This document shows positions 2,279 through 49,896 of a stretch of DNA of 64,000 nucleotides, piece after piece. Numbering within the stretch: the stretch's first letter is position 1; each line of letters opens with the position of its first letter. The stretch is from positions 248,001 through 312,000 of the forward strand of contig JALGYY010000046.1 in assembly GCA_025782575.1 (NCBI GenBank). The letters are read 5' to 3'. The notes under the pieces are model-generated. The model ran no database searches. It was not told the DNA's origin and was given only the letters and a program-made list of their open reading frames with translations. Both the position numbers and the translations under genes were made by a program. The stretch comes from a bacterium. Its GTDB lineage: Bacteria; Orphanbacterota; Orphanbacteria; Orphanbacterales; Orphanbacteraceae.

Positions 2279-3877
2279 ATGAGCAAAATGAATAAGCGGC
2301 GGGAGGAGCAAGAGCGATATCGCACACTCTCCGATATCCCCGTCGATCGCCTTTATGGGCCGGAGAAACCGGATGAGAAGATCGGGATCCCTGGATCCTA
2401 TCCGTTCACCCGCGGAATTCATGAAACGATGTACCGGAGCCGTCTCTGGACCATGCGTCAGTTCGCCGGTTTCGGCACTCCGGAAGATACGAACGCTCGA
2501 TTCCGCTATCTGCTTCAAAAAGGGCAGACCGGTCTCTCTACGGCGTTCGACATGCCCACACTGATGGGGTATGACTCCGACGATCCGATCTCCCTCGGCG
2601 AGGTGGGTGTCGAGGGTGTGGCGGTCGACACGATCGAAGATATGGAGACGCTGTTCGCCGGTATTCCACTCGATCAGGTTTCGACTTCCATGACGATCAA
2701 CGGTCCGGCGATTCTGCTGCTTGCCATGTACATCGTGGCGGCAGAGCGGCAGGGCGTCCCTCCTGAAAAACTTCGCGGCACGCTTCAAAACGATATTTTG
2801 AAAGAATACATCGCCCAGAAAGAGTGGGTCTTTCCCCCCCGGCCTTCCATGCGAGTCATCACAGACATGCTCGCCTACTGTACGGAACACATGCCGCTCT
2901 GGAATACGATTTCGATCAGCGGCTATCACATAAGGGAAGCAGGCTCCACCGCCGTTCAGGAACTGGCGTTCACCCTCGCCGACGGATTTGCATACGTGGA
3001 AGCGGGTATTGAGGCCGGTCTCGATGTCGATGACTTCGCACCCCGGCTGTCATTCTTCTGGAACGCCCACAACGATTTCTTCGAAGAGATCGCCAAGTAT
3101 CGCGCGGCCCGCAGAATCTGGGCGAAGAGAATGAAGAACGTGTACGGCGCAAAGAAAGAACGGAGCTGGATGGTCCGGTTCCACACGCAGACAGCCGGCT
3201 GTACACTCACCGCTCAGCAGCCGGAAATCAACATCGCCCGTGTGGCCTATCAGGCTCTTGCCGCCGTTCTCGGCGGTACTCAGTCGCTTCATACTAATTC
3301 CATGGACGAGGCTCTAGCGCTTCCCTCGGAAAAAGCGGCGAAGATCGCACTTCGTACGCAGCAGGTAGTTGCTCATGAGACCGGTGTGACCAACACGGTC
3401 GACCCGCTTGGCGGATCCTATTTTTTAGAGTCGCTCACCGATCGCATGGAGGAAGAGGCGGAACGCTACTTCCGGGAGATTGATGAACGGGGGGGCGTGA
3501 TTGCGGCGATCGAAGAGGGCTATTTCCAGAAGGAAATCGCCGATTCAGCTTATCAGTATCAACGGGAAGTGGAGAAGGAAGAGCGGATTGTCGTGGGAGT
3601 AAACGCCTACAAAGAAGACGAGAAGATCGAGATCGACCTTCTGCATATCGATCGGGAGAAGCAGACAGATCAGTTGAAGCGGTTGCAGTCGTTTCGGGCA
3701 CGGCGAAACAATGACGAAGTCGACCAGGCCCTGGCCGCCATTCGAAAGGCATCGGAAACCGGAGAGAATCTGATGCCTCCGATTCTGGACGCGACCCGCA
3801 AGGGGGCTACCCTCGGCGAAATGGTAAACGTCATGCGCGGAGTATTCGGCACGTACCGAGAACCGGCCGTGTTTTAG
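2279..3877 (+). CDS. Methylmalonyl-CoA mutase, large (catalytic TIM-barrel) subunit
   Basis: Converts (R)-methylmalonyl-CoA to succinyl-CoA, or a close acyl-CoA analogue, with adenosylcobalamin bound by the separate small subunit. The 532-residue product covers only the N-terminal substrate-binding barrel. Visible family signatures are '[21 protein letters not shown]' near residue 42, '[14 protein letters not shown]', '[17 protein letters not shown]', '[18 protein letters not shown]' and '[12 protein letters not shown]'-like text (here '[17 protein letters not shown]'). It sits between meaB and the B12-binding subunit in one operon. The split-subunit form is common in bacteria and archaea. 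Isobutyryl-CoA or ethylmalonyl-CoA mutases share the fold, so substrate is inferred from the meaB and beta-oxidation context. Confidence 0.93.
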
Positions 3878-3904
3878 CTCCACTCTTTTATGAGGAAGTG
3901 AAAG

Positions 3905-40646: not shown

Positions 40647-41485
40647 CCACCTTTCATCCTGTGAGTGTCGGCGCGGTCCGCTTCGGGGAAGGAGACGGCC
40701 TCGCCCTTATCTCAGGACCATGCGTAATTGAGACGGCCGAGATCTGTCTCGCCGCGGCTGAACGGATCAGCGAAATCACGGCCCGTCTCGGGATTCCTTA
40801 CGTGTTCAAATCTTCATTTCGAAAGGACAATCGATCCTCACTCGACAATTACGAAGGGCCGGGCGTCGAAGCGGGTCTGGAAATACTCCAAAAAGTAAAG
40901 AGCCGGATAGGGTGTCCTGTGATTTCTGATGTTCATACACCCGCCCAGGTCGGGCCGGCCTCGGAGGTTCTGGACGCCATACAGATTCCTGCCTATCTTT
41001 CCCAGCAGACGGAACTTCTCGTTACGGCCGGAAAGACCGGGCTCCCCGTAAATGTGAAGAAGGGCCAGTTTATCGCTCCCGAGGATATGAAAAATTCGGT
41101 CAGAAAAATTGAATCGACCGGGAATCACTCCATCCTGTTGACTGAGCGGGGGAGTTCGTTCGGTTACCGCAATCTGGTGGTAGACTATCGTTCGCTTCCC
41201 ATCATGCGAAGCCACGGCTACCCGGTGATCTTCGACGCCACTCATGCTGTCCGGATCTACGGCCGGCCGAGTTCTGATCCCAAAGGGGGGACCCCCGAGC
41301 ACATCCCCCTGCTGGCACGAGCAGGTGTTGCTGCCGGTTGTGACGCCCTATTTCTGGAAGCCCACCCTGACCCGACCAAGGCACTCTGCGATGCATCGAG
41401 CCAACTGAGAATCGATCGACTCGAAACGCTCCTTCGACAGGTGCTTGCCATTCATGAAGCACGGGTGGAGCATCAGGAGCTGTGA
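40643..41485 (+). CDS. kdsA: 3-deoxy-8-phosphooctulonate synthase
   Basis: Condenses arabinose-5-phosphate with phosphoenolpyruvate to Kdo-8-phosphate. The 280-residue product has 'ISGPCVIETAEICL', 'FKSSFRKDNRSS', 'SDVHTPAQV', 'VNVKKGQFIAPEDM', 'LTERGSSFGYRNLVVDYR' and 'EAHPDPTKALCDASSQL'. The cysteine in GPCVIE, in place of the asparagine of the E. coli enzyme, indicates the metal-dependent class. GTG start overlaps the pyrG stop (GTGA); its end overlaps kdsD the same way. Confidence 0.97.
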   Translation: MTTFHPVSVGAVRFGEGDGLALISGPCVIETAEICLAAAERISEITARLGIPYVFKSSFRKDNRSSLDNYEGPGVEAGLEILQKVKSRIGCPVISDVHTPAQVGPASEVLDAIQIPAYLSQQTELLVTAGKTGLPVNVKKGQFIAPEDMKNSVRKIESTGNHSILLTERGSSFGYRNLVVDYRSLPIMRSHGYPVIFDATHAVRIYGRPSSDPKGGTPEHIPLLARAGVAAGCDALFLEAHPDPTKALCDASSQLRIDRLETLLRQVLAIHEARVEHQEL

Positions 41486-42519
41486 AACCTGTTCTGGATC
41501 AATCCTGGGTGGAGAGCTGCATCGAGAGAGGCCGCGAAGTCCTGAAGCGGGAGGCGGACGCGCTCCAGGAATTGGAGGGCCGTCTCGATCGGTCGTTCGC
41601 CGAGGCTGTCGATCTGCTTTACCGTACGATCGTCCGCCCCGAAGACCGTTCGCGAACAGGGCTTGGCAAGGTTGTTGTAACCGGGATCGGTAAGTCCGGG
41701 ATCATCGGCCGGAAATTGGCGGCGACGTTCAATTCAACCGGAGCGACGGCCTTCTTCCTTCATCCTGTCGAAGCGGTACACGGCGATCTCGGTATGGTGA
41801 CCGGAGAAGATGTTGTAGTCGTACTTTCGCGATCGGGGAACAACGAAGAGGTCAATCGCTTGATCCCTTCCCTTAAAGTCCTCGGCCTTCCGATCATCGC
41901 GATTACGGCGAACGGAGAGAGCGAGCTCGCCCGAGCCGCCGCTGTCACGATCGAAATCGGCGACGGCCCGGAAGCGTGCAGCCTGAATCTTGCCCCCACT
42001 TCGAGTGCGGTTGCCATGCTGGCGGTGGGCGACGCACTTGCTCTGACACTTTTCGATTTGCGAGGTCTGAAAGAGGAAGACTTCGCCCGATTCCATCCGG
42101 CGGGCGCCCTCGGGAAGCGTCTTCTTCTCAAAGTAGAAGATCTGATGCACACGGGGGAGGAGATGCCGGCGGTCGGTGAGGAGGTGAGCATGAAGGATGT
42201 GCTTGTCGAGATCATCGAGAAGCGATTGGGCGCGACGACCGTAATCGATGACGATGGCCATCTTTCCGGGATTATTACAGACGGTGATCTGAAGCGTCTC
42301 TTGCTTCGTCATCAGGATCTATTCACTCTCCAGGCCCGTGATGTCATGAGCACCCGCCCATCATCGATACGGAAGGACCTCCTTGCGGCCGACGCCCTCA
42401 AGTTGATGCACGCCGATCCGAAGGCGATCATCACTTGTCTGGCGGTGACTGACGAGGAGGGATCCCTGCTCGGTTTCGTTCATATGTACGACTGCCTTCG
42501 AAGCGGAGTCGCCGGATAA
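41482..42519 (+). CDS. kdsD: Arabinose-5-phosphate isomerase (KpsF/GutQ family)
   Basis: Interconverts ribulose-5-phosphate and arabinose-5-phosphate, the first step to Kdo. A SIS domain is at residues about 40-180 ('GIGKSGIIGRKLAATFNSTG', 'VVVLSRSGNNEEVNRLIP') and includes the family 'PTSSAVAMLAVGDALA' stretch. Two CBS domains form the C-terminus ('LGATTVIDDDGHLSGIITDGDLKRLL' and 'IITCLAVTDEEGSLLGFVHM'). The length of 345 is close to the usual 320-330. GTG start overlaps the kdsA stop. It ends the kdsB-pyrG-kdsA-kdsD set. Confidence 0.95.
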   Translation: MKPVLDQSWVESCIERGREVLKREADALQELEGRLDRSFAEAVDLLYRTIVRPEDRSRTGLGKVVVTGIGKSGIIGRKLAATFNSTGATAFFLHPVEAVHGDLGMVTGEDVVVVLSRSGNNEEVNRLIPSLKVLGLPIIAITANGESELARAAAVTIEIGDGPEACSLNLAPTSSAVAMLAVGDALALTLFDLRGLKEEDFARFHPAGALGKRLLLKVEDLMHTGEEMPAVGEEVSMKDVLVEIIEKRLGATTVIDDDGHLSGIITDGDLKRLLLRHQDLFTLQARDVMSTRPSSIRKDLLAADALKLMHADPKAIITCLAVTDEEGSLLGFVHMYDCLRSGVAG

Positions 42520-42526
42520 CCCGTTC

Positions 42527-42542
42527 TGGCACAAACGTTGCT
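42527..42542 (+). promoter_or_regulatory. Sigma-54-type -24/-12 element before lpxL-lptC-lptB-rpoN
   Basis: TGGCAC at 42527-42532, then AAACG, then TTGCT at 42538-42542. The invariant GG (42528-42529) and GC (42540-42541) are 12 bp apart, as required for sigma-54. Only the base after TGGCAC differs from the usual TGGCACG-N4-TTGCW. It overlaps the TTGACA of the sigma-70 promoter by one base. Confidence 0.6.
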
Positions 42543-42570
42543 TGACACTCCCTATATCCTTGTCTATTCT
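42542..42570 (+). promoter_or_regulatory. Sigma-70-type promoter of the lpxL-rpoN operon
   Basis: TTGACA at 42542-42547, 17-bp spacer, TATTCT at 42565-42570, about 48 bp before the lpxL GTG. Both hexamers match the meaB promoter. Confidence 0.72.
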
Positions 42571-42618
42571 CTAGTTGGCCGATAATGAACCCCGGCCGGA
42601 ATTGGGGATCAACGTCTG

Positions 42619-43500
42619 GTGAACCTTCCCTCCAAACTTGCATCCAAAGCGATTCTGGCTTTGATGGGCCTCGGAAAGACGTTGCCTCGTGACCTGGCTC
42701 TGCCTCTTTTCGAGGCAGGAGGATCACTCGCCCATCTGATTCTTGGACGTGGGCGTCGCATGGCCCGCCACAATCTCCATCTGATTTACGGTGATCGATC
42801 AGAGGCGAACAGACTATCGAGAATCGTCTATAGGGAACTCGGGCGGAACGTGGTCGATCTTGCGCGCCTGGAAATCATCAGCAGCTCCGAATTGAACAGT
42901 CTGGTGGAGGTCGAAGGATACGATCATCTCCAGAAGGCGATTGATCGAGGTCGCGGCATAATCGGCGTCACAGGTCATATCGGAAACTGGGAGTTGCTCG
43001 CATCCTGGCTCGGGTGCCGTGGTGTCGATCTGACAGTTTTCTCTTCCTCTTCTTTTGATCCTAAACTCGGTGAGAGACTCGTCCGGCTACGGGCTCGTCA
43101 CGGTGTGCGCTCCATAGTCCGTTCGGAGACCGATTGCCTTCGTGAAATCTTCAGGACACTTCACCGAGGGGGCATGCTCGGGCTCCTCATGGATCTTCGA
43201 TCCCGTTCAATGGGTGTAGATACTGTATTTCTCGGCAGGCCTGCCCGGGCAGTAACCGGGCCGGTCCGGATCGCGATGAAAACGGGTGCATCCCTGGTCC
43301 CCATGGCATGCTGGCGAATGGGAGATGACCGTTATCAGCTCGTGATCGACGAACCTGTTCGCCTCGTCTCTACTGGGAACATGGATGCAGACATAATCGA
43401 GAACACAAGACGGTGTATGCAGATAATCGAAACTTATATTCACAGAGTGAGAACACAATGGGTCTGGATGCACGATCGATGGAATCAGGGGGCGGCCTGA
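42619..43500 (+). CDS. Lipid A biosynthesis acyltransferase (LpxL/HtrB family)
   Basis: Adds a secondary acyl chain to Kdo-lipid A on the inner face of the inner membrane. The 293-residue product has the catalytic H(X)4E motif with H120 and E125 in 'VTGHIGNWELLASW'. A family 'GGMLGLLMDLRSRSMGVDTVFLGRPA' region and 'ALVPMACWRMGDDRYQLVID'-like text follow. An amphipathic N-terminus anchors it to the membrane. GTG start. It is first in an operon behind paired sigma-54 and sigma-70 elements and overlaps lptC. LpxL versus LpxM specificity cannot be read off. Confidence 0.88.
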   Translation: MNLPSKLASKAILALMGLGKTLPRDLALPLFEAGGSLAHLILGRGRRMARHNLHLIYGDRSEANRLSRIVYRELGRNVVDLARLEIISSSELNSLVEVEGYDHLQKAIDRGRGIIGVTGHIGNWELLASWLGCRGVDLTVFSSSSFDPKLGERLVRLRARHGVRSIVRSETDCLREIFRTLHRGGMLGLLMDLRSRSMGVDTVFLGRPARAVTGPVRIAMKTGASLVPMACWRMGDDRYQLVIDEPVRLVSTGNMDADIIENTRRCMQIIETYIHRVRTQWVWMHDRWNQGAA

Positions 43501-44024
43501 TACTGGCAGTCGCAATTCTCGCGGGTGCCGGCTGCGCCGACCTCAAGGAGCCGGCTGTCTCCTCGTCAGCCGGTGGCGGTTCGTCACCGATTCAGGAAAC
43601 CCAAGTCAGAAAATGGGTCGAATACAGGGGCGGCCGGATCGCGTGGGAGTTCCGTGGCGATCGGCTTCGCTACTATGAGAATCCCGAGAGGGTCGAGGCG
43701 GATCAGGTGATCATCGATTTCTATGACGATGACGAAGAGTATTCTTCCACGCTTCTGGCCGATCATGGGGAAATCGATCAAAAGTCGAGCGATATGAGGG
43801 CATGGGGATCAGTTGTCCTCACAAATGTGGAAGGAACCAGGCTGGAAACGGAATCTATCGAGTTTAGAGACAAAGAGGAAAAGATATTCACTGACGACTT
43901 TGTCTCGATCACCAAAGGAAAGCAAAAAATCACAGGCTACGGGCTTGAGACGGATCCCCATTTGAACGAAACGTTGATCAAGAGAGATGTGGTGGCGGTG
44001 ACTGATGAGGCCATCGATGGTTGA
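43458..44024 (+). CDS. lptC: LPS export protein LptC, probable lipoprotein-like anchor
   Basis: Periplasmic bridge protein of the Lpt machine, about 188 residues from the ATG at 43458 (ATG 43479 is the alternative). It starts inside lpxL (43-bp overlap). A short hydrophobic segment '[18 protein letters not shown]' ends in a cysteine that may be lipidated, though the lipobox is imperfect. The beta-jellyroll follows the LptC pattern: '[21 protein letters not shown]', '[22 protein letters not shown]', '[22 protein letters not shown]' and '[10 protein letters not shown]'. No separate LptA gene lies between it and lptB. Confidence 0.82.
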
Positions 44025-44766
44025 GCCGGTCAAAGAGGCCGTCGGGACTGAGCTCAGGACGGATGATCTCTCTAAGCAATATCGAGGCCGTGAAGTTGTC
44101 CGTGGTGTGTCGGTCAACGTCAGGCAGGGCGAAGTGGTCGGCCTGCTCGGACCGAACGGTGCCGGAAAGACGACGACCTTCTACATGATCGTCGGCATGA
44201 TTCGACCTAAGAGGGGACGGATATTTCTTGACGATATGGATGTCACGGGACTTCCGATGTACCGGCGGGCACGAATGGGAATCGGCTATCTCCCACAGGA
44301 GTCGTCGATCTTTCGAAAGCTGACAGTCGAGGAAAATGTACTGGCCGTTCTGGAAACGATGCCAATGGGAAAGAAAGAGCGGAGGGAGAGGGCCGATCAA
44401 CTCATCGAGGAATTGGGAATCACAGACCTGGCCCGTGCCAAGGCGTACACCCTCTCAGGTGGAGAACGACGGCGCGCGGAAATCAGTCGCGCTCTGGCGA
44501 CAGATCCTTCCTTTCTCCTGCTTGACGAACCATTCGCCGGCATCGACCCGATTGCGGTACAGGACATTCAGGAGATCATCGCGGGTTTGCGGGACAGGGG
44601 GCTCGGCGTCTTGATTACGGATCATAATGTGCGAGAAACACTATCGATCACGAATAGGGCTTATATTATGTATGAGGGTAAGGTGCTTCTCTCAGGGAGT
44701 GCCGGAGAACTCGCCGAGAACCAGGAAGCACGCCAGATCTATCTGGGCGAGAAGTTTCGGCTCTGA
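44005..44766 (+). CDS. lptB: LPS export ABC transporter ATP-binding protein LptB
   Basis: Cytosolic ATPase powering LPS extraction through LptF/LptG, 253 residues from ATG 44005 (ATG 44017 also possible, overlapping the lptC stop). Walker [12 protein letters not shown], the LptB-typical '[18 protein letters not shown]', signature [15 protein letters not shown], Walker [13 protein letters not shown] and '[15 protein letters not shown]' are all present. Its membrane partners lptF and lptG are on the opposite strand at 53.5-56 kb. It overlaps lptC and is followed by rpoN, the usual lptB-rpoN-hpf order. Confidence 0.97.
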
Positions 44767-44798: not shown

Positions 44799-46247
44799 AT
44801 GGAAATGAGAGTCGGACTTCAGCTCCGCATGCTGCAGACACAAAAGCTCGTCATGACGCCGCAGTTGCAGCAGGCCTTGAAGTTTCTACAGATGCCTACT
44901 CTGGAACTGCAGCAGGTGTTGAAACAGGAGCTTCTTATGAATCCCGTGCTCGAAGAGGTTGACGACCTCATCGACGGCGAGGAAGAGGAACTGGATAAAC
45001 GGGAGGAAGAGCCAGCGGATCCGATGGAGAAGCCCGAACCGGATGAGAACCAATCCAATGATGAGCAGAAGAACGAGATCGACTGGGACGAATATTTCCA
45101 CTCACCACAGGATTACTCCCATCGTCAGCAATCCGAGGGAGGGCAGGACGAGACATACGAGCGTGTGCTCTCTACTACGGTCCGACTGTCGGAGCACCTG
45201 ATTTCCCAGCTTCGGATCGCGACGACCGATGATGAGACATTGCGGATCGGTGAGTTCCTGATCGGGAGCCTCGATGACAAGGGCTTTCTGACGTTGTCAT
45301 TTGAAGAAGTGGCGGAGAGTGTGCGGGCTCCCGTGAACCGGGTGCGGAAGACTCTCGAGCTGTTGCAGACGTTCGATCCTTCCGGCGTGGGAGCCCGCGA
45401 TCTCCGTGAATGTCTTCTTCTGCAGTTTCAGGCAGTAGAGGATTCGTCGAGCCTCGCCTACCGTGTGGTTCATGATCACTTCGATGAGTTCGTGCAGAAC
45501 AAATATAACGATATCGCTCGCAAACTGAAGACCACCGCCCAGGAGATTCAAGAGGCGACCGGCGTGATCGGGCAGCTCAATCCCAGGCCGGGAATGCTGT
45601 ATACGGACGAGGACCCCCGCTATATCACACCTGATCTGGTCGTCGACCGCGTCGATGACGAATACGTCGTTTACCTGAACGATCAGAACGTTCCGCGGCT
45701 TCGGGTATCGAAGACGTACCAGAAACTGATGACCAACGGCGACGGAACGAACTCCGAAACGAAAGAGTATGTAAAAAACAAGCTGAATGCGGCCAATCAG
45801 CTGATCAACACGATCGAGCGACGACGCAGGACCATGATTAAAGTCATGAAGTCGATCGTGGAGAACCAGGAGGAGTTCTTCGAAAGGGGAATTCGTTACC
45901 TGAAACCGATGACGCTTCAGCATGTGGCGGATCAGATCGGTATGCATGAGTCTACAGTAAGCAGGGTCACGTCGAATAAGTACGTGCAGACCCCCCGGGG
46001 CGTGTTCGAGCTCAAGTTCTTCTTCTCCTCGAGTATTCGATCCGATTCAGGTGAGGATGTCTCGGCCAAGCGCGTGAAAGATCGTGTCAAGGAACTGGTT
46101 GATTCCGAGGTCAAGACTAGCCCGCACAGTGATCAGAAGATTGTTGATATTCTCAGGAACGAGGGGCTTATCATTGCAAGGAGGACTGTAGCGAAGTATC
46201 GGGATCAAATGGGGATTCTCTCCGCCCGATACCGGAAGCAGTTCTGA
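44799..46247 (+). CDS. rpoN: RNA polymerase sigma-54 factor
   Basis: Alternative sigma factor of 482 residues. Region I is glutamine- and leucine-rich ('LQLRMLQTQKLVMTPQLQQALKFLQMPTLELQQ' area, residues 5-37), and region II is acidic. The core-binding domain follows. A helix-turn-helix is 'MTLQHVADQIGMHESTVSRV', and the RpoN box is 'IIARRTVAKYRDQ' near residue 465, essentially perfect. It needs an AAA+ activator, none of which is in this window. It is followed by hpf and hprK, as in the classic rpoN cluster. The upstream operon promoter has a sigma-54 site, so it may control itself. Confidence 0.98.
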   Translation: MEMRVGLQLRMLQTQKLVMTPQLQQALKFLQMPTLELQQVLKQELLMNPVLEEVDDLIDGEEEELDKREEEPADPMEKPEPDENQSNDEQKNEIDWDEYFHSPQDYSHRQQSEGGQDETYERVLSTTVRLSEHLISQLRIATTDDETLRIGEFLIGSLDDKGFLTLSFEEVAESVRAPVNRVRKTLELLQTFDPSGVGARDLRECLLLQFQAVEDSSSLAYRVVHDHFDEFVQNKYNDIARKLKTTAQEIQEATGVIGQLNPRPGMLYTDEDPRYITPDLVVDRVDDEYVVYLNDQNVPRLRVSKTYQKLMTNGDGTNSETKEYVKNKLNAANQLINTIERRRRTMIKVMKSIVENQEEFFERGIRYLKPMTLQHVADQIGMHESTVSRVTSNKYVQTPRGVFELKFFFSSSIRSDSGEDVSAKRVKDRVKELVDSEVKTSPHSDQKIVDILRNEGLIIARRTVAKYRDQMGILSARYRKQF

Positions 46248-46278: not shown

Positions 46279-46812
46279 ATGCAGCTCTCGATCACCGCGC
46301 GTCATTTCGACCTCACGGAAGGTCTAAAGGAACACACGGAGGAGCGAGTTCAGAAGCTCACCAAGTACGGACTCGATATCCTGGAAGCCCATGCGGTGTT
46401 GATGGTGGAAAAATACCGTCATATGGTGGAGGTCACGCTTCACTCCAAGGGCTTAAACGTTACCGGAAAGGCGGAGTCTGACGACATGTATACCTCTGTC
46501 GATCAGGCCGTAAACAAGGTGGAAGAGCAGATCCGTAGGCACAAGGATCGCATGAAGGGGCACAAATCGAAGGTCACGCGAAGGTCCGGTGTCCGGTTCG
46601 ATGTTTTGCGGACGAAAAGCGATAAGACCGGCGCCCAGATTGATGTCGTGCGCTCCGGCGAGTTAGAGATCCCGACGCTGACAGTGGAAGAGGCTATTCT
46701 CGAGTTGGAGAAAGGGGGCGACGATTACGTTCTCTTTACCAATCCCATAACTGACAAAGTTAACATCCTGAGCAAGAGGGAAGACGGAAACTACGGCGTC
46801 GTCGAGACCTGA
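46279..46812 (+). CDS. hpf: Ribosome hibernation-promoting factor, long form
   Basis: A 177-residue long-type HPF. The N-terminal S30AE domain ('LSITARHFDLTEGLKEHTEERVQKL' start, residues 3-100) binds the decoding centre. The C-terminal domain ('VRSGELEIPTLTVEEAILELEKGGDDYVLFTNP' area) mediates dimerisation of 70S ribosomes into 100S particles. AAAGGGGAC precedes the ATG. Position behind rpoN is conserved in many bacteria. Confidence 0.95.
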   Translation: MQLSITARHFDLTEGLKEHTEERVQKLTKYGLDILEAHAVLMVEKYRHMVEVTLHSKGLNVTGKAESDDMYTSVDQAVNKVEEQIRRHKDRMKGHKSKVTRRSGVRFDVLRTKSDKTGAQIDVVRSGELEIPTLTVEEAILELEKGGDDYVLFTNPITDKVNILSKREDGNYGVVET

Positions 46813-46842: not shown

Positions 46843-47784
46843 ATGAAGAGCCTATCGGTTCGGGAACTCTACGAAAGCAAGAGGGAGCTCTTTCAATTCG
46901 AAGTGCTGACAGGCTCCATCGATTCCGAACGCCCGATTACGGTGAGCGATGTTCATAGACCGGGTCTGGCTCTCGCCGGCTTTACGAAGAACTTTCTGGC
47001 TGAACGGATTCAGATCCTCGGCGAAACGGAAATGCTCTTCCTGGAGACGCTGGGGAAAGAAGAACGGCGAAAAGCGATTGATCGTCTCTTTCAGGAAAAA
47101 GTACCTTGTGTCATTGTCGCTAAAGGTCTCGAATATGATGCATACCTGTCGACGAAGGCGAAGGAAGTCGGTGTTCCGATTTTGCGGACGCCCCAATCGA
47201 CGACGCCGTTCATTCATCGCCTGGCTGAATTTCTTGAAGAGGCTTTTGCGCCGAGAACAACGCTACATGGAACGCTCGTCGACGTGTATGGTGCCGGTCT
47301 TCTGATTACGGGAAAAAGCGGCATCGGGAAAAGCGAATGCGCACTGGACCTCGTAGAGAGAGGGCACCGTCTCGTTACTGACGACATGGTGATCGTCACA
47401 AGAAAGCACAATCTGCTCTACGGCGAGGCAAGCGAACAATTGAAGTACCACATGGAGATCCGGGGGATCGGGATCGTCGACGTGCGCAGCATGTTCGGCG
47501 TTCGTGCGATAGGGAAGACAAAGCGAATCGACGTGGAGGTTAGACTTCGCGAATGGAGCGCCAGCGTGCAGTATGATCGCCTCGGCCTCGAGGATCGGAT
47601 GACGACGATTCTGGGATTGAAGGTACCGGTCGTCACGATTCCGATCATTCCCGGCAAGAACATCACGGTTCTGGCAGAGGTAGTCGCCATGAACCATCAA
47701 CTCAAGATTCAGGGAATCCATTCAGTTGATCTTCTGGATAAATCCTTGATCGAAGCGATGCGAAAAAAATCCGCTCCCGTATGA
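46843..47784 (+). CDS. hprK: HPr kinase/phosphorylase
   Basis: Bifunctional enzyme that phosphorylates and dephosphorylates Ser46 of HPr, 313 residues. The N-terminal regulatory domain is followed by the P-loop GKSGIGKSE (residues about 157-165), 'LVERGHRLVTDDMVI', and the HprK/P signature 'MEIRGIGIVDVRSMFGVRAI' with downstream 'IDVEVRLREW'. It sits between hpf and ptsH; target serine and catalytic motifs are both conserved, so the pair should be functional. AGGAGA precedes the ATG. Confidence 0.97.
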   Translation: MKSLSVRELYESKRELFQFEVLTGSIDSERPITVSDVHRPGLALAGFTKNFLAERIQILGETEMLFLETLGKEERRKAIDRLFQEKVPCVIVAKGLEYDAYLSTKAKEVGVPILRTPQSTTPFIHRLAEFLEEAFAPRTTLHGTLVDVYGAGLLITGKSGIGKSECALDLVERGHRLVTDDMVIVTRKHNLLYGEASEQLKYHMEIRGIGIVDVRSMFGVRAIGKTKRIDVEVRLREWSASVQYDRLGLEDRMTTILGLKVPVVTIPIIPGKNITVLAEVVAMNHQLKIQGIHSVDLLDKSLIEAMRKKSAPV

Positions 47785-47839
47785 TCGGAGAATAGCAGCG
47801 GTCGCGCCAGAATGGTCGAACCACGAGACACAGGTGGGC

Positions 47840-48118
47840 ATGTTGGAACGAATCGTTCGAGTTAGAAACAGCAAGGGGATTCATATCAGACCGGGGCAGG
47901 AGATTGTCCAGACTGCCGAGCAGTTTCTGGCTGATGTATTCCTGCAGAACGGTTCGAAGCGGATCAATGCGAAAAGCATGCTCGGCATCATGGGACTCGT
48001 GGCGGGAGAGGGTACGGATCTCAAGATCATTACGGACGGCCCGGACGAGGCCGAAGCACTACAGGCTCTCGCCGACCTTATCGAGAGCGGCTTCGGTGAG
48101 GAGCTTGAAGAAGAGTGA
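47840..48118 (+). CDS. ptsH: Phosphocarrier protein HPr
   Basis: A 92-residue HPr. ATG 47840 is preferred over GTG 47834 because it places the phospho-histidine at H15 (G-I-H-I-R-P) and the regulatory serine at S46 (NAKSMLGIMGL), the standard numbering. The residue after H15 is Ile instead of the usual Ala. EI phosphorylates H15; HprK acts on S46. It overlaps ptsI by 4 bp (GTGA). No EII permease is nearby, so a regulatory role is likely. Confidence 0.95.
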   Translation: MLERIVRVRNSKGIHIRPGQEIVQTAEQFLADVFLQNGSKRINAKSMLGIMGLVAGEGTDLKIITDGPDEAEALQALADLIESGFGEELEEE

Positions 48119-49896
48119 ATCTTCCCCCTGATCGTGATTCGAGGGGAGGGGGGGGCGGGCATTCTCTCCTGCATGGTATCCCCGTGTCTCCCGGCATTGC
48201 TGTAGGTGAAGTCTTCGTTCTCGGGGCCGAAGAGTTCGAGATCGATAACCGCCCGATTGAAGCCTCCGAAACCGACACTGAACAGAAACGGTTCTTCGAC
48301 GCACTCGACCGCACTCGCCACGAGATCGAGAAAATCCGCACCCGCTATCGATCTGTAATCGGTGAAGAACTCGTTCGTGTGTTCGACGCTCAGATCCTGA
48401 TTCTGCAGGATCCCACTCTGCTTGACGGAACGACTCATCGTATTCAGAAGGAGCTGCAGAGTGCCACCGCCGCCTTTCAGGCGATCATTTCGGAAGCGAT
48501 CGTCAATCTCTCCCGTGTGGAAAATGACTACCTGCGTGATCGCGTGGAAGATCTGAAAGACGTCAGGAGAAGGGTGTTGAGACATCTTTCCGGCCGTGGC
48601 CGGAAATCACTATCCCACCTGAAGAAGAACGTCATCCTCGTCGCAGAGGACTTGACGCCGTCAGAGACTGTTCAGATTCCGAGAAGCAAGGTCAAGGGGT
48701 TCGTGACGAGGCAAGGGGGGGCCACGTCTCATACGGCGATCATGGCCCGTTCGCTTCAGATTCCGGCGGTGGTCGGGGTTGAAGGATTGCTTGATCATGT
48801 TCATCATCGCGATATTGTCGTGATCGACGGGAGTGAGGGCCAGATACTGGTGAATCCCGCACCGGACGTCTTGAAGAAGGCGCGCAAACAGCAGCGCCGC
48901 TACAAGGAACTCTCTAAGGAGCGCAAGCGCCTTCACGACCTGCCGTCCAGAACTCGAGATGGCTTGGATATCAAGCTGCTCGCCAATGTCGAATTCCCTG
49001 AGGAGATTCCGCTGGCCCTTGAAAACCGGGCGGCCGGAATCGGCCTGTTTCGCACTGAATTTTTATTCTTTCGGGAATCCGATCTATCGGACGAGGATGC
49101 CCAGACGTCTCTTTACCGTAAAATACTGAAGCGCGTTTCTCCCGAAGTCGTGGTGTTCCGCACGCTCGACGTCGGCGGTGACAAAGTGCTCGATCCCATG
49201 AGCGACGTACTCGAGCCGAACCCTATGCTCGGCTGGCGAGGAATCCGGATCTCCCTCGAATTGCGACCTCTCTTTCGAAAACAGTTACGCGCCCTTCTGC
49301 GAGCATCCGTAGACGGAAACCTCCGAATCCTTTTCCCCATGATCACGACGATTGAGGAGATTCGTGCTTCCAAGAGGATTCTCGCCGAGGTAAGGGAGGA
49401 GTTGGAACTCGGGGGACATCACGTTCCGAAAAACTATGAGGTGGGCGTCATGATCGAGACCCCGGCCGCCGTGAGTGTGGCTGATCACATCGCCCGGGAA
49501 GTGGATTTCATGAGCATCGGGACGAACGATTTGATCCAGTACAGCCTCGCGGTCGATCGAGACAATATGAAAATCGCCCATCTGTTCGATCCGTTTCACC
49601 CGGCAGTGGTTCGTATGGTCCACTCCGTACTCGAGGTCGGCCGCGAGTCGGATACACCTGTCAGTATCTGTGGAGAAATGGCGGGCGAACCGCTGGCGGC
49701 GCTCCTACTCATCGGTCTTGGAGCCAGGGAACTATCAGTTCACCCCTATTTGATTCCGGAACTGAAGAGGCTGATTACACGTATGAGTTCAGTAGACGCT
49801 CACCGTCTGGCCGAGCAGGTACTCGAGCTGCCGACCGGCCACGACATCCACGAGACAATGGAAGAATATCTGCACATGCTGGAGAGCGAGGAGTAA
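48115..49896 (+). CDS. ptsI: PTS enzyme I (phosphoenolpyruvate-protein phosphotransferase)
   Basis: Starts the PEP phosphorelay to HPr, 593 residues. The N-terminal HPr-binding and swivel domains carry the active-site histidine H206 in 'QGGATSHTAIMARS'. The C-terminal PEP-binding barrel has 'GIGLFRTEFLFF', 'FRTLDVGGDKVLDPM', 'NPMLGWRGIRISLE', 'GVMIETPAAV', 'FMSIGTNDLIQYSLAVDRDN' and the cysteine in 'VSICGEMAGEPL'. No GAF domain precedes it, so it is EI rather than EI-Ntr. GTG start overlapping ptsH. Confidence 0.97.
   Translation: MNLPPDRDSRGGGGGHSLLHGIPVSPGIAVGEVFVLGAEEFEIDNRPIEASETDTEQKRFFDALDRTRHEIEKIRTRYRSVIGEELVRVFDAQILILQDPTLLDGTTHRIQKELQSATAAFQAIISEAIVNLSRVENDYLRDRVEDLKDVRRRVLRHLSGRGRKSLSHLKKNVILVAEDLTPSETVQIPRSKVKGFVTRQGGATSHTAIMARSLQIPAVVGVEGLLDHVHHRDIVVIDGSEGQILVNPAPDVLKKARKQQRRYKELSKERKRLHDLPSRTRDGLDIKLLANVEFPEEIPLALENRAAGIGLFRTEFLFFRESDLSDEDAQTSLYRKILKRVSPEVVVFRTLDVGGDKVLDPMSDVLEPNPMLGWRGIRISLELRPLFRKQLRALLRASVDGNLRILFPMITTIEEIRASKRILAEVREELELGGHHVPKNYEVGVMIETPAAVSVADHIAREVDFMSIGTNDLIQYSLAVDRDNMKIAHLFDPFHPAVVRMVHSVLEVGRESDTPVSICGEMAGEPLAALLLIGLGARELSVHPYLIPELKRLITRMSSVDAHRLAEQVLELPTGHDIHETMEEYLHMLESEE

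Follow-up and report, generated by a model that had tools for sequence, protein, structure and literature searches.

The operon that encodes sigma-54 (RpoN) in this bacterium is preceded by a composite promoter, in which a sigma-54 site and a sigma-70 promoter overlap in a fixed register. This register is found after kdsD in members of three phyla. In our interpretation, sigma-54 polymerase probably represses its own operon by occluding the sigma-70 promoter, and firing of the sigma-54 promoter by an activator would also be possible.

The composite lies between the stop codon of kdsD (42519) and the GTG start codon of lpxL (42619) in the window, by which we mean the whole 64-kb stretch of DNA that was analysed. 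Direct reading gives cccgttcTGGCACAAACGTTGCTTGACActccctatatccttgtcTATTCTctagt for positions 42520-42575. The sigma-54 (−24/−12) site, TGGCACAAACGTTGCT, occupies 42527..42542 on the plus strand, 8 bp from the kdsD stop, with its GG at 42528-42529 and its GC at 42540-42541; it is oriented toward lpxL and predicts a start near 42553. The initial annotation had written this site as TGGCAC-AAACG-TTGCT, a string of 16 bases, and had called it near-perfect. Its position is confirmed by reading, but the match is in fact perfect, agreeing with TGGCAYRN4TTGCW at all specified positions, and TGGCACN5TTGC has this site as its one exact match in the 64-kb window. As had also been claimed, its last T (T42542) doubles as the first T of the sigma-70 −35 hexamer TTGACA (42542..42547, plus strand). 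After a 17-nt spacer comes the −10 hexamer TATTCT (42565..42570, plus strand), with a predicted start near 42577, about 24 nt from that of sigma-54. Relative to the predicted sigma-54 start, TTGACA covers −11 to −6. The good sigma-70 promoter described earlier, ending in TATTCT at 42570, is there on direct reading, and TTGACA-17-TATTCT was the single match when 41500-43500 was scanned for sigma-70-type promoters; because 0.8 matches would be expected by chance in these 2 kb, the sigma-70 hexamers alone carry little weight. Around the site, the window has no inverted repeats other than short palindromes.

Upstream of the composite is kdsD (41482..42519), an arabinose-5-phosphate isomerase gene with SIS and two CBS domains by Pfam. 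The controlled operon begins with an lpxL-type lipid A acyltransferase gene (42619..43500, PF03279), whose GTG start corresponds to that of its homologues in relatives, and continues with lptC (43413..44024, PF06835; the coordinates use the listed ORF start, and the true start may be further in) and the LPS export ABC ATPase gene lptB (44005..44766, PF00005 and synteny). Next comes rpoN (44799..46247; PF00309, PF04963, PF04552), with its activator-interacting, core-binding and DNA-binding domains all present. The remaining genes are the long form of hpf, for ribosome hibernation (46279..46812, PF02482 and PF16321), hprK, encoding HPr kinase/phosphorylase (46843..47784), ptsH, encoding HPr (47834..48118), and ptsI, encoding enzyme I (48115..49896), the last three assigned by Pfam. 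All genes from kdsD through ptsI are on the plus strand, with short gaps or overlaps between them, and Pfam bears out the order lpxL-lptC-lptB-rpoN-hpf-hprK-ptsH-ptsI given in the initial annotation. Within 43413-44766, lptC and lptB overlap and there is no lptA ORF between them. The genes hprK, ptsH and ptsI (46843-49896) directly follow hpf. We saw no enzyme II component in the ORFs read as far as 52.2 kb, and this PTS relay may therefore serve regulation alone.

How unusual is this arrangement? The sigma-54 consensus alone is only modestly enriched genome-wide: in pattern searches of the 4.88-Mb genome, TGGCAYRN4TTGCW had 7 matches versus 2 for the reversed control, and a search with one mismatch did no better than its control (83 versus 125). 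The 21-base overlap TGGCAYRN4TTGCTTGACA, searched with at most one mismatch, is present in one copy per genome in all seven sampled members of the phylum (five genera), always after kdsD; the seven matches had no mismatches, and the control had no matches. Only one of 379 other genomes contained it at the same tolerance, at a different location. When the full composite, defined as the overlap plus TATNNT at 16-18 nt, was searched in 84,980 species, it gave 10 matches, seven of them between kdsD and the lpt-rpoN operon: four in the organism's own family and three (G386-G388) in another phylum. The significance is in the combined elements, not in either one alone. The full composite is also present some 190 bp upstream of an ORF of 1229 aa, rpoB-like by eye (L071, minus strand, 3838-3882), in an uncultured bacterium (CALLLL010000151), possibly by chance.

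G386-G388 all belong to one phylum of 80 genomes (phylum groupings are tool-assigned, and one of the three records is labelled Krumholzibacteriota), and KdsD was found in 75 of the 80. We collected 60 stretches downstream of kdsD from this phylum, or 61 regions with the window, and most of these stretches keep the order kdsD-(lpxL)-lptC-lptB-rpoN-hpf-hprK. A sigma-54 match of at least 11/12 lies within 320 bp after kdsD in 46 of the 61 regions, versus 5.9% in shuffles and 1.6% on the reverse strand. In a genome-wide search, the relaxed motif TGGCAYN6TGCTTGAC was found in 46 of the 80 genomes, once per genome except for one genome with two copies. We also surveyed the DNA upstream of rpoN in 60 stretches taken from other genomes. 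In several of them, rpoN or lptC is preceded by a sigma-54 site outside the TTGAC register (e.g., G039, G282, G136 and G079), and the register itself occurs only in G140, G178 and G031. The latter two belong to the second phylum already surveyed, and G140 led to a third, of eight genomes, in which the relaxed motif occurs once in six and sits between kdsD and lpxL wherever this could be read. Together, the second and third phyla gave 53 matches to the relaxed motif versus 6 control matches. Conservation of both elements in related genomes, the check proposed in the initial annotation, thus extends in the overlapping register from 7/7 members of the phylum to 46/80 and, by the same relaxed motif, 6/8 elsewhere.

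In the KdsD tree, the organism's own phylum and the third phylum group together (100/97), with deep branches not firmly resolved. Members without the site are scattered over the tree, a pattern compatible with an old element that was lost several times. Where kdsD and lpxL abut, the entire element is missing, and the composite is therefore not indispensable. In two genomes (L131 and L133), kdsD is about 3.5 kb from the lpxL-lptC-lptB-rpoN cluster and no composite follows it.

Alignment of 64 distinct sites shows four conserved boxes between which the spacers drift in sequence: information is concentrated in TGGCAYA, TGCT, TTGAC(A) and TA...T and is low in the spacers. Since TGGCAY and TGCT, and for a minority of sites TTGAC as well, served as selection criteria, conservation in these columns is in part built in; the selection had no bearing on the −10 hexamer or on the A that follows TGGCAY. 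NANNNT follows TTGACN with a 17-nt spacer in 44% of the 64 sites and with an 18-nt spacer in 20%, versus 0-11% at other spacings. We also used a set of 67 kdsD-anchored regions from two phyla, chosen without reference to any box. The sigma-54 core is present in 52 of the 67, and TTGAC stands in register in 46 of these 52. The other six keep the sigma-54 core with a changed −35 (TATAC, TTCAC, TTAAC, TCGAC twice, and TTAAG). The reverse case, a sigma-70 pair without the TGGCAC/TTGC core, which the initial annotation had named as its refuting observation, was not found: the core accompanies all 13 of the 13 TTGACN-17-TANNNT promoters. Two relatives, L160 and L170, have a perfect sigma-54 core with TCGACT in place of TTGACA; in L170 this may be offset by a perfect extended −10 (TGCTATAAT) that lies at 17 nt. 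The −10 is weak in many of the second phylum's high-GC members (e.g., GAACCT or CAACCT), and for this reason sigma-70 activity there is uncertain. Because of the shared base, a shift in register would break one of the elements. The conservation therefore shows selection on both boxes, and not by itself selection on the overlap.

The genome encodes an intact three-domain RpoN and has about 27 strong matches to activator ATPases. One enhancer-binding protein looks broken, as stops (TGA and TAG) interrupt its ATPase domain (G000:C18:32817-33097), which extends over two frames. There are six other perfect sigma-54 sites, four of which precede genes with sigma-70 region 2/3 (sigma-28-like), flagellar FlgE/F/G, pilin methylation-motif or LytB domains; flagella and pili are classical sigma-54 targets. 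The LytB (IspH-type) case is an unusual possible target, with a perfect site before or just inside the ORF (L009, G000:C42:21794-21809). None of the six other sites is followed by TTGAC, which places TTGAC outside this organism's sigma-54 consensus and rules out the idea that it is a general extension of the genome's sigma-54 sites.

Sigma-54 polymerase requires an activator to open DNA and is otherwise a roadblock, and its closed complex covers a stretch of the promoter that includes −11 to −6. As the −35 hexamer falls within this stretch, the two polymerases should exclude each other, as the initial annotation had proposed; this is in line with the competition seen in vitro at overlapping promoters of E. 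coli (PMC4551910). We propose the following sequence of events. Sigma-70 polymerase would transcribe lpxL-lptC-lptB-rpoN-hpf-hprK-pts at a basal level from about 42577. With rising sigma-54, sigma-54 polymerase would occupy 42527-42542 as a closed complex unable to start alone, which would cover the −35 hexamer and exclude sigma-70 polymerase. The outcome would be negative feedback on the level of sigma-54, and hence on the levels of the LPS-export and PTS genes. Given an active enhancer-binding protein, the same complex could fire from about 42553, so that the repressor would become an activated promoter. Sigma-54 binding, its repressive sign, the activator input and the start sites are predictions made from the DNA sequence. 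Sigma-54 input to acylation of lipid A and to LPS export, suggested in the initial annotation along with rpoN autoregulation, would come solely through co-transcription with rpoN. We consider it less secure than control of rpoN itself, because some operons with the promoter lack lpxL (e.g., L118, L119 and L121).

Could the composite serve mainly to activate rpoN? An activator may drive positive autoregulation as its main purpose, with the sigma-70 promoter supplying only the starting sigma-54 before a switch to the sigma-54 promoter. The many activator ATPases in the genome and the perfect TTGC at −12 in many members are in keeping with this, as are two precedents: rpoN is among the sigma-54 targets in several classes, according to a survey (PMC12316311), and QseF activates glmY from an overlapping sigma-54 promoter (PMC7073468). 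Against it, the 58 upstream regions contain no shared dyad (13 have a 7-bp dyad versus 11.3 in shuffles) and no enriched 7-mer that looks non-coding, the enriched ones resembling the kdsD stretch that encodes HIHDI. Within the organism's own family, the DNA upstream of the site is kdsD coding sequence, and the ORFs read at 38.2-52.2 kb include none that we recognised as an activator gene. The dyad and 7-mer searches for a common upstream activator site yielded only apparent kdsD coding sequence, which mildly favours occlusion over one fixed activator. Activators or their sites may vary by lineage or lie inside kdsD. On balance, activation as the main purpose appears unlikely to us, though it deserves to be taken seriously.

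The remaining alternatives concern the identity of the boxes. That the sigma-54 box is the sole functional element, with TTGAC a lineage-specific −12 extension or the site of another factor rather than a −35, would account for the 6 of 52 sites with an altered TTGAC and for the poor −10 hexamers of some high-GC lineages; we judge it improbable in view of the NANNNT peak at 17-18 nt after TTGACN, which together hold 64% versus 0-11% elsewhere, and of the genome's other sigma-54 sites, which lack TTGAC. Still less probable is binding of TGGCAY-N6-TGC by a different DNA-binding protein instead of sigma-54 polymerase. The box is recognised by its sequence, which leaves some room for such a protein, but it is not an inverted repeat, it has the exact asymmetric −24/−12 consensus with the right GG/GC distance and a drifting spacer, and it precedes rpoN itself in an activator-rich genome. 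Finally, the window alone might suggest a normal sigma-70 promoter that matches the sigma-54 consensus by accident, as neither element stands out there from a handful of chance matches. A single register at a single locus conserved in three phyla makes this scarcely credible, and the 7/7 single-copy conservation together with the 13/13 co-occurrence at kdsD-anchored loci refutes a chance match.

Autorepression by occlusion is favoured by three observations in other bacteria. In vitro, where E. coli promoters of the two kinds overlap, sigma-54 cuts transcription by sigma-70 polymerase by 10-60%, and the same study reports a C at −12 in all repressive E. coli sigma-54 sites (PMC4551910). At glmY, the overlapping sigma-70 promoter is normally kept repressed by bound sigma-54 (PMC7073468). 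In Geobacter, overproduction of RpoN inhibits growth (PMC2725144), which suggests that the RpoN level needs control. The literature also reports or predicts rpoN autoregulation in many classes (PMC12316311), with negative autoregulation in R. leguminosarum (cited in PMC3538637).

The closest parallel is E. coli glmY (Reichenbach 2009; Gopel 2011; via PMC7073468 and PMC3844500), where, as here, a sigma-54 site covers a sigma-70 promoter; sigma-54 represses until an activator fires the sigma-54 start, and there is a link to the cell envelope, likewise as proposed here. The glmY promoters, however, are described as "perfectly overlapping", and their product is a small RNA, whereas here the −12 box abuts the −35 with one shared T and the predicted starts lie about 24 nt apart. 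Unlike at glmY, the operon controlled here encodes sigma-54, which would close a feedback loop. Work on rpoN autoregulation likewise describes a sigma-54 site before the sigma-54 gene, sometimes with negative effect (PMC12316311 and PMC3538637), but excerpts of the 16-phylum survey (PMC12316311) contain no mention of a fixed overlap with a sigma-70 −35, and Krumholzi-, Eisenbacteria and Gemmatimonad- are absent from its main text. The E. coli class I/II promoters argT, chaC, mdfA and patA share the sigma-70 overlap and show binding competition in vitro; in the excerpts of that study they are scattered cases other than rpoN, with phylum-deep conservation not described (PMC4551910). In 2011, sigma-54 was proposed as a controller of the bacterial exterior from gene context and promoter motifs, in a study that described both the kdsCD-lptABC-rpoN-hpf-PTS neighbourhood and a link between sigma-54 and LPS (PMC3162934); its text contains neither 'autoregulat' nor 'upstream of rpoN', and the composite here adds a direct cis-regulatory link at the operon. 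We found no paper on Krumholzibacteriota and sigma-54, and no earlier description of the composite in the open-licence literature. Each principle thus has a precedent in glmY, rpoN autoregulation or sigma-54 occlusion; what is new is the fixed sigma-70 −35 overlap at the rpoN operon, its three-phylum depth and its near uniqueness per genome.

Taken together, these findings make the composite look like an ancient feedback switch, with sigma-54 setting its own level. It is tempting to go further and to see in TGGCAYA-N4-NTGCTTGACA-N17-TANNNT an ancestral, nearly single-copy, activator-free sigma-54 homeostat of three related candidate phyla, tying LPS export capacity to sigma-54 supply, a view that we put forward tentatively. 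Sigma-54 is usually regarded as activator-dependent, and its own gene as constitutive or mildly autoregulated. On the tentative view above, sigma-54 would count itself by blocking the housekeeping promoter that drives the rpoN operon, and it would act here mainly as a repressor. A composite whose register is conserved across three phyla, nearly always as a single copy per genome at the rpoN operon, is strong comparative evidence that a sigma-54 polymerase parked on the DNA can repress as a selected function rather than as a side effect. With it, the proposals of repression by sigma-54 binding competition (PMC4551910) and of sigma-54 control of the bacterial exterior (PMC3162934) become testable on one small DNA fragment.
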